From NCBI GenBank assembly GCA_029067085.1, contig JAIEFE010000013.1:62001-126000 (forward strand): 64,000 nt of DNA, written 5' to 3'. Position 1 is the stretch's first letter, and the number at the start of each line of letters is the position of its first letter. This document shows positions 37,736 to 42,873 of the stretch, one piece after another. Below the pieces are notes generated by a model. That model worked only from the letters and a program-made list of their open reading frames with translations. It was not told the DNA's origin and did no database searches. This DNA comes from Lachnospiraceae bacterium (GTDB lineage Bacteria; Bacillota; Clostridia; Lachnospirales; Lachnospiraceae). The position numbers and the translations under genes are program-made.

Positions 37736-37798
37736 ATGTCTTAGTTATATTCAGAAACCCTGTAATATTATCGACTTATGCTGGAGACATTTCTCTTT

Positions 37799-39043
37799 TC
37801 ACCAGGTAATATGATTTTTAAAAATTACTTTTTTGCTTCCGGCTTCAATTTTACCAATTTCGTAGCAATCATAATGTTTTTTGATAAGTTCTTCTACCCG
37901 CTTTGCATGCTGTCTTTCTACAACAACAATCATGCCAACACCACAATTAAATGTAGAGAGCATTTCAGTTTCGTCAATATTTCCGACTGCCTTGATATAA
38001 GAAAATATGGGCAATGGTTTTATCTGATCCAAATATATTTCAGCACATAACCCATTCGGTATGATCCTACCTAAATTGCCTTCTATACCACCGCCGGTAA
38101 TATGCGCCATGCCGTGAACGCTGCTATCAGGAAACAGAGATTTTATTGACTTGTAGTATGGCGTGTGTGGTTTCATAATTTGTTCAATAAAAGTTTCTCC
38201 ACCTATCTTATCCAGTTTTATTTGTGGCATTTTTTCCATCAACAACCGAACTAATGTATAACCGTTTGTATGAAGACCATTCGAGGCTATTGCCAGCACA
38301 ATATCTCCCTCGTGAATATCGGTGCCATCAATAACATTACTTCTGGAAACGATACCTGCAATACTAGACGTGAGTATATATAATCCACTACTGACAACAT
38401 CCGGTTGGATGGAAGTTTCTCCGCCAACCAAATTGCATTCGTTTTCCTGACACGCTTCGGATATGCCTTTCACAAAAGACTTTATTGTTTCTTTTTCTGC
38501 CTTTCCACACACAATAGTGTCAAGTACTGCAAGCGGTTTTGCTCCCATTACTGCAATATCATTTACCAAATGATTTATCATATCATGACATATTGACTCG
38601 CTGTACCCGTACTCCATAGCTAATTTTTGTTTAGAACCAGGTTCTTCTGATTTTAAAACCAATATAGGATCTTCTATATTTAAAAATCCTATATCGTATA
38701 GAGATGCAAAAGGACCTACGCCATTTAAAACGCGTTCGTTATCCGTTTTCAGATATACCGCCATTTCCTTTTTGATAGCGTCCGTATAGGAAATATCCAC
38801 TCCGGCTTTACTATATGAAAAGGTCTCGTTGTTCTTATCCCTTCCTACAAGAATTTCGTCAACCGTCGTATTCAAAATTTTAGCCAGCTCTACTAAGATT
38901 TCCAAATTCGGTAAAGTACCATTTTCCCATTTTGAAACAGCTTGAAAAGAGATTTTTAATTTTTCAGCTACTTCTGCCTGTGTCATTCCAAGTTGTTTTC
39001 TTTTATTTGAAATAAATTCTGATATTTTTTTGTTATCAAGCAT
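37799..39043 (-). CDS. HTH-PurM fusion: XRE domain joined to AIR-synthetase-like domain
   Basis: A 414-residue fusion. Residues about 5-64 are an XRE helix-turn-helix (ISNKRKQLGMTQAEVAEKLKISFQAVSKWENGTLPNLEIL). Residues about 75-414 follow AIR synthetase (PurM, phosphoribosylformylglycinamidine cyclo-ligase): VNDIAVMGAKPLAVLD, LVGGETS, GLHTNGYTLVRLL, HITGGGIEGNLGRIIPNG and FNCGVGMIVVV. The PurM loop usually reading TDGVGTK is here SEEPGSK, so Mg-ATP binding may be changed. It stands outside any pur operon, in an AT-rich stretch. It may be a regulator sensing a purine intermediate, or an enzyme that controls its own synthesis; the sequence does not decide. GGAGG lies before the ATG. Confidence 0.88.
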   Translation of the reverse strand: MLDNKKISEFISNKRKQLGMTQAEVAEKLKISFQAVSKWENGTLPNLEILVELAKILNTTVDEILVGRDKNNETFSYSKAGVDISYTDAIKKEMAVYLKTDNERVLNGVGPFASLYDIGFLNIEDPILVLKSEEPGSKQKLAMEYGYSESICHDMINHLVNDIAVMGAKPLAVLDTIVCGKAEKETIKSFVKGISEACQENECNLVGGETSIQPDVVSSGLYILTSSIAGIVSRSNVIDGTDIHEGDIVLAIASNGLHTNGYTLVRLLMEKMPQIKLDKIGGETFIEQIMKPHTPYYKSIKSLFPDSSVHGMAHITGGGIEGNLGRIIPNGLCAEIYLDQIKPLPIFSYIKAVGNIDETEMLSTFNCGVGMIVVVERQHAKRVEELIKKHYDCYEIGKIEAGSKKVIFKNHITW

Positions 39044-39400
39044 TTTACATCCTCCGGCTCTATAGTGTATCTTAAATATAATATATCTTTTGAGTTATTT
39101 ACAATAACTGAATATTTGAATTCAAAAGCTCCATTCTACTTACGGTTGAATACAGATTCTATTTCGAATTTTAAGCTGTGGGTACACTTATCCGAAAAGA
39201 GAGTTCGCAAACTATAATGTTTCAAACGAAAAAAGGAGAAAACTTATTATTCCTCTTGTTATTTTTCTGCTTAGATAGTAAAATAAAGTTAAATTAGCTA
39301 AATGATGTGACGTGAAATTAATTAAATTTAATCTTGCACATGCTAAAAATTAGCTATTACTGTTTTAACCGAAAATAATCTGAAATGAAGGAGAAAAAAT
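39044..39400. other. AT-rich intergenic region
   Basis: This 357-bp stretch between the divergent HTH-PurM and SGNH genes shows no supported gene. One AAAAAAGGAG at about 39228 is not followed by a usable start codon. Promoters for both neighbours must be here, but no convincing -35/-10 pair was found by eye. Confidence 0.5.
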
Positions 39401-40569: not shown

Positions 40570-42873
40570 ATGTTTCGTGACGATTTTGTTTGGGGTGTGG
40601 CGAGCAGCGCCTGTCAGGTGGAAGGAAGAGATCCCGAGGACGGTGCAGGTACAATGATCTGGGATACGTTTGCAAAGAAAGGCAACATTTCAGATCATTC
40701 GGATGCCAGTGTGTCCTGTGATCATATGCACCGTTATCCTGAAGACTATAAGTTGATGCGCCTTCTTGGCGTGAAAGCCTACCGTTTCTCTGTGAGCTGG
40801 GCAAGGCTTATGCCGGAGGGGACGGGGCACGTTAACGAGAAAGCGGTCAAACTTTACCGTGATATGATCACGGAGATGAAAAAAAACGGCATTACACCTT
40901 ATCTGACCATGTATCACTGGGAACTGCCTCAGATATTGCAGGATAAAGGCGGCTGGCTGAATGAGGAGATCATTGATTGGTTCGGAGAATTTGCAAGGGT
41001 GGTGGCGGAGAATTTCTCTGATCTTTGCGAATATTATTTTACGCTGAATGAGCCACAGTGTTTTGTGGGATTCGGATATCTGCTCGGCATTCATGCACCG
41101 GGTGAAAAACTGTCGCTAAGGGACAGCTTTCAGATTGTCCACAATGTGCTGCGTGCGCATGGCAGGGCGGTAATCAATCTGCGTAAATATGCAAAGCAGC
41201 CGATTCGGATCGGCTGCGCGCCCACATGCGGAGTTGCCTATCCTTACAGTGAGAAGCCGGAAGATATCGAGGCGGCAAGGCAAAAGTTCTTCTCCCTCAA
41301 TGAACCGAATGAGAATTGGACCTGGAATGTCGTATGGTTTTCGGATCCGGTATTTTTTGGTCACTATCCGGAGGAGGGACTTAAAAAGTATAAGGAATAT
41401 CTGCCTGAGATCACCAAAGAGGATATGGAACTGATCTCACAGCCGTTAGATTTTTTAGGACAGAATATTTATACCGGCTACATGGTGCGCGCCGGAGCGG
41501 ACGGGGAGCCGGAGTATGTCGGACAGCCGATAGGTCACTCAAAGACGGCAAATGATTGGCTCGTGACGCCGAAGTGTATTTATTGGGGCATGAGATTTCT
41601 GTATGAGCGCTACAAACTGCCTTTGTATATCACGGAAAACGGGATGTCCTGCCACGATATTGTCTCTAAGGACGGCAAGGTGCATGACCCTAACCGAATC
41701 ACCTACCTGGATCAGTATCTCTCTGCCCTGCAGCAGGCGGTGGATGACGGTGTGGATGTGAGAGGGTATTTCGAGTGGACCTTTTTGGATAATTTTGAGT
41801 GGAGCAGGGGCTATACCGAACGGTTTGGTCTGGTTTATGTGGATTTTCAGAGCCAGAAGAGGATAGTCAAAGATTCCGCATACTGGTATAAGAAAGTGAT
41901 GGAGACGAATGGAGCGATCCTGTCGATCAATCAAAAGGAAAAGCCAATCTTATTCTTAAATCCTGTATTTAAGCAGATGATCTGGGGCGGAGAGCGCCTG
42001 GGAACGGATTGGTCTTATGAGATTCCGGGTCCCGGGACGGGTGAATGCTGGGCAGTGAGTGCGCATCCGAACGGCGATTGTACCGTGAGAGAGGGAAAGT
42101 ATGCCGGAAAGACATTGTCGGAACTCTGGGAGGAGGAACCGACGCTTTTTGGAAATACGAAACTGGATCGCTTTCCCCTGCTCACAAAGATAATCGACGC
42201 GAAGAACGATCTGAGCATTCAGGTGCATCCTGACGATGATTATGCAAACGAGCACGAAAACGGATCGTTCGGAAAGACTGAGTGTTGGTATATTTTGGAC
42301 TGTGAAGAGAATGCCACGCTGGTGGTCGGTCATAACGCGAAGGATAAAGAAGAGCTTACTGCAATGATAAATGAGGGAAGATGGGGAGAGTTTATCAGAG
42401 AGATTCCCGTAAAGAGGGGAGATTTCATCCAGATCGACCCCGGCACGGTACACGCGATCAAGGGTGGTATTATGCTTCTGGAGATCCAGCAGAATTCAGA
42501 TATTACCTATCGCGTCTATGACTACGATAGATTGAGTGACGGAAAGCCCAGACAGCTCCATGTGGAGCAGAGCATTGATGTGATCACCGTTCCGGCAAAG
42601 CCGACTGAGGACTGCGTGACAGCGGCGGCGGATCTGCCGAAAGATCAGAAGAACATACTGATCGAAGGTGAATACTATAAGGTTTGGAAGCTCGATGTGG
42701 TTAATCTCCTTTTCTTTGAGCAGGAGCATCCCTTCCTCATTATGAGTGTGATTTCAGGCGAGGGCTTGATCAACGGACAGTTGATACAGAAGGGAGATCA
42801 CTTTATTCTGCCCTGCGGATATGGAAGGGTAGAATTGCTGGGAAAGATGGAGATCATAGCGGCGAGCATCTGA
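40570..42873 (+). CDS. GH1 beta-glycosidase fused to mannose-6-phosphate isomerase
   Basis: A 767-residue fusion of two enzymes. Residues 1 to about 447 are a GH1 glycosidase: FVWGVASSACQVEG, acid/base Glu161 in TLNEPQ, nucleophile Glu356 in ITENGM, and EWTFLDNFEWSRGYTERFGL. Residues about 458-767 are a type I phosphomannose isomerase: GGERLGTDW, the zinc motif LSIQVHPDD, ECWYIL, GTVHAI and EIQQNSDITYRVYDYDR. Together they could release mannose or Man-6-P from a beta-linked sugar and turn it to fructose-6-phosphate. No mannose kinase or PTS gene lies beside it. AAGGAAGGAAT precedes the ATG, and a terminator follows. Confidence 0.92.
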   Translation: MFRDDFVWGVASSACQVEGRDPEDGAGTMIWDTFAKKGNISDHSDASVSCDHMHRYPEDYKLMRLLGVKAYRFSVSWARLMPEGTGHVNEKAVKLYRDMITEMKKNGITPYLTMYHWELPQILQDKGGWLNEEIIDWFGEFARVVAENFSDLCEYYFTLNEPQCFVGFGYLLGIHAPGEKLSLRDSFQIVHNVLRAHGRAVINLRKYAKQPIRIGCAPTCGVAYPYSEKPEDIEAARQKFFSLNEPNENWTWNVVWFSDPVFFGHYPEEGLKKYKEYLPEITKEDMELISQPLDFLGQNIYTGYMVRAGADGEPEYVGQPIGHSKTANDWLVTPKCIYWGMRFLYERYKLPLYITENGMSCHDIVSKDGKVHDPNRITYLDQYLSALQQAVDDGVDVRGYFEWTFLDNFEWSRGYTERFGLVYVDFQSQKRIVKDSAYWYKKVMETNGAILSINQKEKPILFLNPVFKQMIWGGERLGTDWSYEIPGPGTGECWAVSAHPNGDCTVREGKYAGKTLSELWEEEPTLFGNTKLDRFPLLTKIIDAKNDLSIQVHPDDDYANEHENGSFGKTECWYILDCEENATLVVGHNAKDKEELTAMINEGRWGEFIREIPVKRGDFIQIDPGTVHAIKGGIMLLEIQQNSDITYRVYDYDRLSDGKPRQLHVEQSIDVITVPAKPTEDCVTAAADLPKDQKNILIEGEYYKVWKLDVVNLLFFEQEHPFLIMSVISGEGLINGQLIQKGDHFILPCGYGRVELLGKMEIIAASI

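Follow-up and report, generated by a model that had tools for sequence, protein, structure and literature searches.

The locus described here raises the question whether an enzyme of purine biosynthesis that is joined to a DNA-binding domain acts as an enzyme, as a transcription regulator or as both. The window, i.e., the whole stretch of 64,000 nucleotides that was analysed from a Lachnospiraceae genome, harbors an xre-purM fusion gene at positions 37799..39043 of the minus strand, with its ATG at 39043 and the end of its stop codon at 37799, which encodes a protein of 414 aa. The sequence-only reading of this DNA had proposed a fusion of an XRE helix-turn-helix (HTH) with a full-length AIR synthetase, and this is borne out by the open reading frame and its translation as well as by Pfam and NCBIfam. 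The HTH comprises residues 5–66 (38846..39031, minus strand), and is matched by HTH_3 (Pfam) at residues 13–64, which at 61.3 bits against a cut-off of 23 places it in the XRE/Cro-CI family. The AIR synthetase (PurM) domain comprises residues 76–414 (37802..38818, minus strand) and is matched by AIRS (Pfam, residues 149–231, 64.2 bits, cut-off 24), AIRS_C (Pfam, residues 245–407, 85.5 bits, cut-off 23.1) and the NCBIfam model TIGR00878 purM (residues 76–401), the latter with 276.6 bits, above the equivalog cut-off of 236.35. By these Pfam and NCBIfam matches, the DNA-binding and the enzyme domains are present in a single polypeptide. The AlphaFold2 model of the protein (pLDDT 92.6, pTM 0.82) displays the PurM fold over the full length of its PurM part.

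Within this part the motifs GGET, NGYTLV, HITGGG and FNCGVGM are all present, and the loop SEEPGSK (residues 132–138; 38630..38650, minus strand) stands in place of TDGVGTK; both had already been read from the translation. The gene also stands alone in AT-rich DNA, as had been noted: its GC content is 36.5%, that of the 341 bp upstream 27.6% and that of the whole window 46.6%, and no purine gene adjoins it among the eight neighboring ORFs scanned, which encode GerA, GDSL lipase, dUTPase-like, NRDD, 4Fe-4S, GH1/PMI, EAL/GGDEF and flavodoxin-like proteins. At 40570-42873 on the plus strand of the window, a family 1 glycosyl hydrolase and a type I phosphomannose isomerase are encoded together in one ORF of 767 aa.

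A separate canonical purM, for which the sequence-only reading had recommended searching, is located elsewhere in the genome (C7:297844-298842). It carries the TDGVGTK loop, adjoins purE and is followed by ORFs that we take to be purN- and purD-like. The fusion gene is the second purM copy of its genome, the assembly of which is 83.64% complete. A solitary gene in a genome where its catalysis is not needed would fit a pure sensor, in which a non-catalytic PurM domain binds FGAM, AIR or ATP and the protein serves in the transcriptional control of purine or other genes. We regard this as unlikely, and the first evidence against it comes from the distribution of the loop.

The canonical PurMs printed in our alignment have TDGVGTK or TDGCGTK where the window protein has SEEPGSK, and the EEPGSK loop departs from the canonical one in five features. 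Columns 133, 134, 136, 137 and 138 of the alignment are E, E, G, S and K in 90/90 fusions and in 7/7 HTH-less proteins that are the sole PurM match of their genomes, which makes the loop the mark of a divergent PurM lineage. P135 is nearly invariant in a 35-row alignment with three canonical PurMs among its rows, and a damaged copy (L097) reads KEPGSK. In the tree, a very long branch with a support of 100 lies between the EEPGSK proteins and the canonical PurMs.

For the question of activity, 25 genomes picked for holding an EEPGSK gene are informative. A canonical PurM is also found in 18 of these, namely in 3 with HTH-less copies and in 15 with fusions or damaged forms, the latter being 15/15 of that kind within the set. 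In the other seven, an HTH-less EEPGSK protein is the sole TIGR00878 match at 1e-30. These seven genomes are 70–96% complete and all of them contain purE, the product of which uses AIR; overall, purE is found in 24 of the 25. Their other ORFs with an AIRS domain are SelD (2), HypE (2), PurL and HypE/ThiL-like proteins below the cut-off (2), besides one further AIRS-domain ORF (G796 C27) and one weak match in G919. TIGR00878 finds PurM in 13 of 14 control genomes and misses Bacteroides, so that very divergent PurMs could escape it, and PF00586 matches in 14/14. Where a position is fixed in all seven sole proteins and in ≥95% of the 18 canonical PurMs, the 90 fusions have the same commonest residue without exception; position 82 is split in the fusions (V 46, I 44).

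Since the relatives that appear to be sole PurMs keep the loop and the fixed positions are retained, the PurM part of the fusion is probably a working FGAM cyclo-ligase. The TDGVGTK loop is typical of canonical PurM and not defining, as the sole EEPGSK PurMs do without it. We have accordingly set aside the reading of SEEPGSK as the sign of a dead enzyme; judged from the alignments it is a lineage mark, and a changed TDGVGTK loop need not imply a dead PurM in other proteins either. For the pure sensor, this means that no enzyme-fixed position has been lost and that the one altered motif is kept in presumed enzymes.

A self-regulated enzyme could also carry out another reaction, with a different formamidine or phosphorylated substrate, for example in removing or resisting a toxic compound. 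The gene has a patchy distribution and travels as a unit, and its control module, as described below, is also found on TehB-like methyltransferases, the family name of which refers to tellurite resistance; both would suit such a role. Nevertheless, the score above the PurM equivalog cut-off, the retention of the PurM-fixed positions and the related HTH-less proteins that appear to serve as sole PurM make it quite improbable.

The fusion is not confined to the window. One scan of named genomes, the search for XRE-PurM architectures that had been suggested beforehand, yielded 151 relatives, mostly from Lachnospiraceae and other Clostridia, with a few under other labels (Bacillus, Muribaculaceae). 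The best 80 of the 151 relatives are 67–95% identical to the window protein, and 79 of these 80 align from residue 1. Within 397 genomes of the window's family, 31 matches were obtained at 1e-60, of which 12 at ≥58% identity are fusions or damaged forms, 3 at 47–51% are HTH-less EEPGSK genes and 16 at 33–39% are canonical-like. In eight fusion pairs, dN/dS amounts to 0.044–0.117 for the whole gene, 0.033–0.131 for the HTH and 0.043–0.137 for the PurM part, and both parts are under purifying selection. A recent accidental fusion, which the sequence-only reading had considered in case close relatives lacked the HTH, can be dismissed because of the match from residue 1 in 79/80 relatives and the low dN/dS of the whole gene.

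A quick tree of 62 rows places 44 fusions in one clade with the HTH-less L134 (support 100). A single clade of fusions is compatible with the data (p-AU 0.569), although L133 and L134 are on long branches. The HTH and the PurM part were therefore probably joined only once, with L134 as either a sister or a case of later HTH loss. Four XRE-PurM copies have large internal deletions (L094/L120, L097/L119, L099/L118 and L188), through which the reading frame remains open in L094, L097 and L099; this indicates that the gene is dispensable in some lineages. Near two of the HTH-less EEPGSK copies lie genes that we take to be Agr-like (L115 4579-7302 and L116 5700-7394), and the respective genomes also contain a canonical purM.

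The region ahead of the fusion gene contains a two-part site that is conserved among the relatives. The first part, O1 (39134..39150, minus strand), is the operator-like palindrome TTCAACCGTAAGTAGAA, with one mismatch to TTCAAC-N5-GTTGAA. The second, O2 (39102..39120, minus strand), has the form TTC-N9-GTTATTG and overlaps the presumed -35. Further downstream follow a presumed -10 region (TATTAT / TATATT; 39075..39083, minus strand), placed by consensus only, and the ribosome-binding site GGAGG (39051..39055, minus strand). The palindrome occurs at ≤2 mismatches upstream of 72 of 88 fusion genes, in comparison to 22 of 1760 Markov shuffles, and GTTATTG occurs upstream of 76 of the 88, or of 60/72 once near-copies are removed. 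Where GTTATTG is present, a palindrome (≤3 mismatches) starts 42 bp (67) or 43 bp (5) ahead of it in 72/76 cases; the 12 upstream regions without it have the palindrome at 0–1 mismatches in 8, at 2 in 1 and at 4–5 in 3. In 57 aligned non-redundant sequences, the TC of TTC-N9-GTTATTG is invariant (57/57), the TTG of GTTATTG lies at the expected -35 and conserved A/T-rich positions begin at +28 after GTTATTG. By estimate, O1 would be centred near -74 and O2 near -44 of the inferred transcription start, with some 30 bp between the two centres.

The HTH-less EEPGSK genes show neither the palindrome at ≤2 mismatches (0/10) nor GTTATTG (0/10). Hence, as far as sequence conservation tells, a conserved palindromic site lies at the fusion gene's own promoter and is tied to the presence of the HTH; a palindromic, operator-like site at the target promoter is also what is expected of an XRE-type regulator. 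From the idea of an enzyme turned into a transcription regulator, a DNA-binding role on the own gene is thus favored by the promoter palindrome, and the step from the altered loop to a sensor falls away with the sole PurMs that share this loop. The other option named at the outset, a moonlighting enzyme controlling its own gene, would fit better than an enzyme turned sensor.

It is conceivable that some other regulator binds the upstream site and that the fused HTH has a different role or none, since many XRE proteins have recognition helices of the SFQAVSKWE type. We consider this highly improbable, because the site accompanies the HTH on three enzyme types and is absent from 10/10 HTH-less relatives, and because the HTH itself is under purifying selection.

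The three enzyme types emerged from searches that used the composite site alone at ≤1 mismatch, with the reversed pattern as control. In the 397 family genomes, 21 composite sites were found in 19 genomes, compared to 3 for the control. Eighteen of the 21 are located ahead of XRE-enzyme genes, 9 of them XRE-PurM and 9 XRE-TehB-like methyltransferase genes, and the remaining 3 lie inside other ORFs. The XRE-PurM sites are partly the source of the pattern, whereas the nine methyltransferase sites are independent of its source set. Internal deletions have damaged three of the nine XRE-PurM genes behind sites (those of G111 and G086 and, in G250, the remnant L188), and among the nine XRE-TehB-like genes L184 is broken and L192 is short. 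Fusions of the TehB-like kind with the two-part site include L180, L186, L189, L190, L192, L193, L198 and L199, among others; in the two proteins scanned, from L198 and L178, the TehB-like part is a SAM methyltransferase (PF03848, 87.1 and 75.5 bits).

The same search in 295 order-level genomes gave 11 composite sites, the window's own among them, and 4 for the control. Here, a third enzyme type was found at L202 421-1452 (minus strand), where an XRE domain is joined to a UbiE/BioC-like methyltransferase and a composite site with one mismatch lies about 55 bp before the start. L201 has the site at an XRE fragment near a contig end, G609 C192 has a perfect site at a contig end, and seven sites lie in other ORFs, one of them already found before; at another of the seven, L205, the only overlap is with a short antisense frame.

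An XRE-TehB gene also occurs in 5 of the 16 genomes with XRE-PurM or damaged forms, including that of the window. Four of the five have a composite site at 2–4 mismatches within 260 bp upstream, with 3 mismatches in the case of the window's genome (G000:C9:3431-4228, L229). In the fifth genome the palindrome itself is perfect, the spacing is 23 rather than 25, and the score is no better than background; as background, of 400 random stretches from the same loci, four scored ≤3 and none 4 or 5. Taken together, the arrangement of HTH and operator looks like a portable control module, which by its sequence would be shared by other enzymes.

These searches bear on the pure sensor from both sides. 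At looser thresholds the matches exceed the control. At 3 mismatches, 15 genomes contain 168 composite sites as opposed to 113 for the reversed pattern (among the matches listed), and at 1 mismatch, 10 genomes contain 62 single palindromes as opposed to 27; there is therefore room for further targets, which would suit a transcription factor. On the contrary, the window's genome has a single composite site at ≤1 mismatch, which is the one at the fusion gene. Six looser-threshold places comprise two in ORFs (pgk-like and membrane protein), one without an XRE gene and three before XRE-TehB genes. Near the sites inspected there is no purine gene apart from one behind an XRE-TehB gene (L174/L199), which overlaps the end of the latter and is presumably purC-like.

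The chromosomal setting of the fusion varies. The comparison of neighbors, likewise suggested from the outset, shows no broadly shared neighbor across 95 loci, and the commonest neighbor clusters (27, 16 and 13 loci) are scattered in position. In a small group of seven loci, a gene that we take to be nitroreductase-like shares position -1, and in 5–6 loci presumed nucleoside-phosphorylase-like and aminoglycoside-nucleotidyltransferase-like genes lie near the PurM fusion. A pair of the nucleoside-phosphorylase-like/nucleotidyltransferase-like kind is seen at L119 7194-8845 (neighbor clusters 12 and 18), and in several loci it lies just upstream.

What recurs is the gene together with its control region. 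In L005, a close relative with flanks on both sides, the DNA match to the window covers 37798-39151, with its limits at about the stop codon and the upstream end of the palindrome; in L007, another such relative, it covers 37789-39160 with the same approximate limits. In 119 pairs with a gene DNA identity of ≥80% and ≥500 bp of flank on either side, the main alignment extends no more than 400 bp beyond the gene in 100, 73 of which are without any other flank match, and longer shared surroundings are found in 19. From these alignments, operator, promoter and gene appear as one unit, about 1.35 kb long, which turns up repeatedly at chromosomal locations unrelated to one another.

The variable location and compact form of this unit, together with the internal deletions in four copies, would also suit a single gene of a selfish or defence-related kind that has simply borrowed the PurM fold. 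Against this stand the retained active-site positions, the lack of a tblastn relative in viral contigs and the finding that no transposase or phage gene is consistently linked across the 95 loci, so that we give this reading the least credence of all. As to a phage gene, the viral contigs contained 11 pattern matches, none of which was a relative by tblastn, and among phage records 1/211 reached 60–80% identity. A plasmid gene was rejected as well, as 160/160 plasmid records were below 60% identity and those listed look like ordinary purM.

As the best explanation, held with somewhat more than even confidence, we propose a self-regulated and probably active second AIR synthetase that rests on an HTH-plus-operator module shared with other enzymes. 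The XRE part would bind two sites at its own promoter, the palindrome about 74 bp and the weaker, related element about 44 bp before the start. In the most likely scheme, the free protein would hold its own promoter down. The PurM pocket would be the sensor, and its occupation by FGAM, by ATP or by both would lift the repression, so that the enzyme would be made whenever a limitation or inhibition of canonical PurM lets its substrate accumulate. Such a relief of repression is slightly favored over activation, because O2 would touch the -35. That the enzyme is active is further argued by the consideration that a regulator which mainly targets its own gene must itself have an output, an argument that becomes weaker if there are more targets. 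DNA binding, catalysis, ligand, repression and physiological role of the fusion are what we infer from these sequences.

More tentatively, and with rather less than even confidence, this proposal can be widened. The HTH and the two-part operator may form a portable module that has been fitted to at least three enzymes, namely two methyltransferases of different kinds and the divergent AIR synthetase. Each of these genes would then be a unit by itself, its product sensing the substrate of the enzyme and controlling mainly its own gene. The PurM version would spread as a cassette of about 1.35 kb from operator to stop codon, and EEPGSK would represent a second, undescribed AIR synthetase lineage, which in some members of the same phylum stands in for canonical PurM. 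If true, a spare, self-inducing enzyme would be kept alongside the normal one. A module shared by unrelated enzymes would also give a simple rule to find more of them, in which the enzyme domain should be the sensor.

In the accessible part of the open-licence literature we found no description of an XRE-PurM or XRE-TehB fusion, of the EEPGSK branch or of the shared operator. By sequence and fold, the fusion belongs to PurM/AIR synthetase (TIGR00878; 1cli, 9jzw, 5vk4), within the EEPGSK branch. In contrast to canonical PurM it has SEEPGSK instead of TDGVGTK, carries an N-terminal XRE domain, and is a second copy outside the purine operon. The EEPGSK branch is not represented by any PDB chain among the Foldseek matches re-examined; P0001 and L138 both matched ordinary PurMs best. 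The XRE-TehB-like fusions resemble XRE-PurM in a similar XRE domain, in the SFQAVSKWE helix, which most of them have, and in the two-part site, and differ in the enzyme part, a SAM methyltransferase (PF03848).

Among characterized systems, the group II biotin protein ligase BirA, as far as the available portion of its literature describes it, likewise combines an N-terminal HTH and an enzyme in one polypeptide, has HTH-less enzyme forms as well and regulates near its own pathway. The enzyme and the HTH class are different, and the predicted target of XRE-PurM is mainly its own gene. PutA and NadR are further enzyme-regulators of this kind, and if our proposal is true, a step of purine synthesis joins this short list of pathways in which an enzyme is its own transcription regulator. 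Bacillus PurR, finally, consists of a non-catalytic phosphoribosyltransferase fold and a DNA-binding domain and controls many purine genes. Both PurR and XRE-PurM join a purine-related enzyme fold to a DNA-binding domain; PurR, however, is non-catalytic and has many targets, whereas the fusion described here is probably an enzyme that would control mainly itself.
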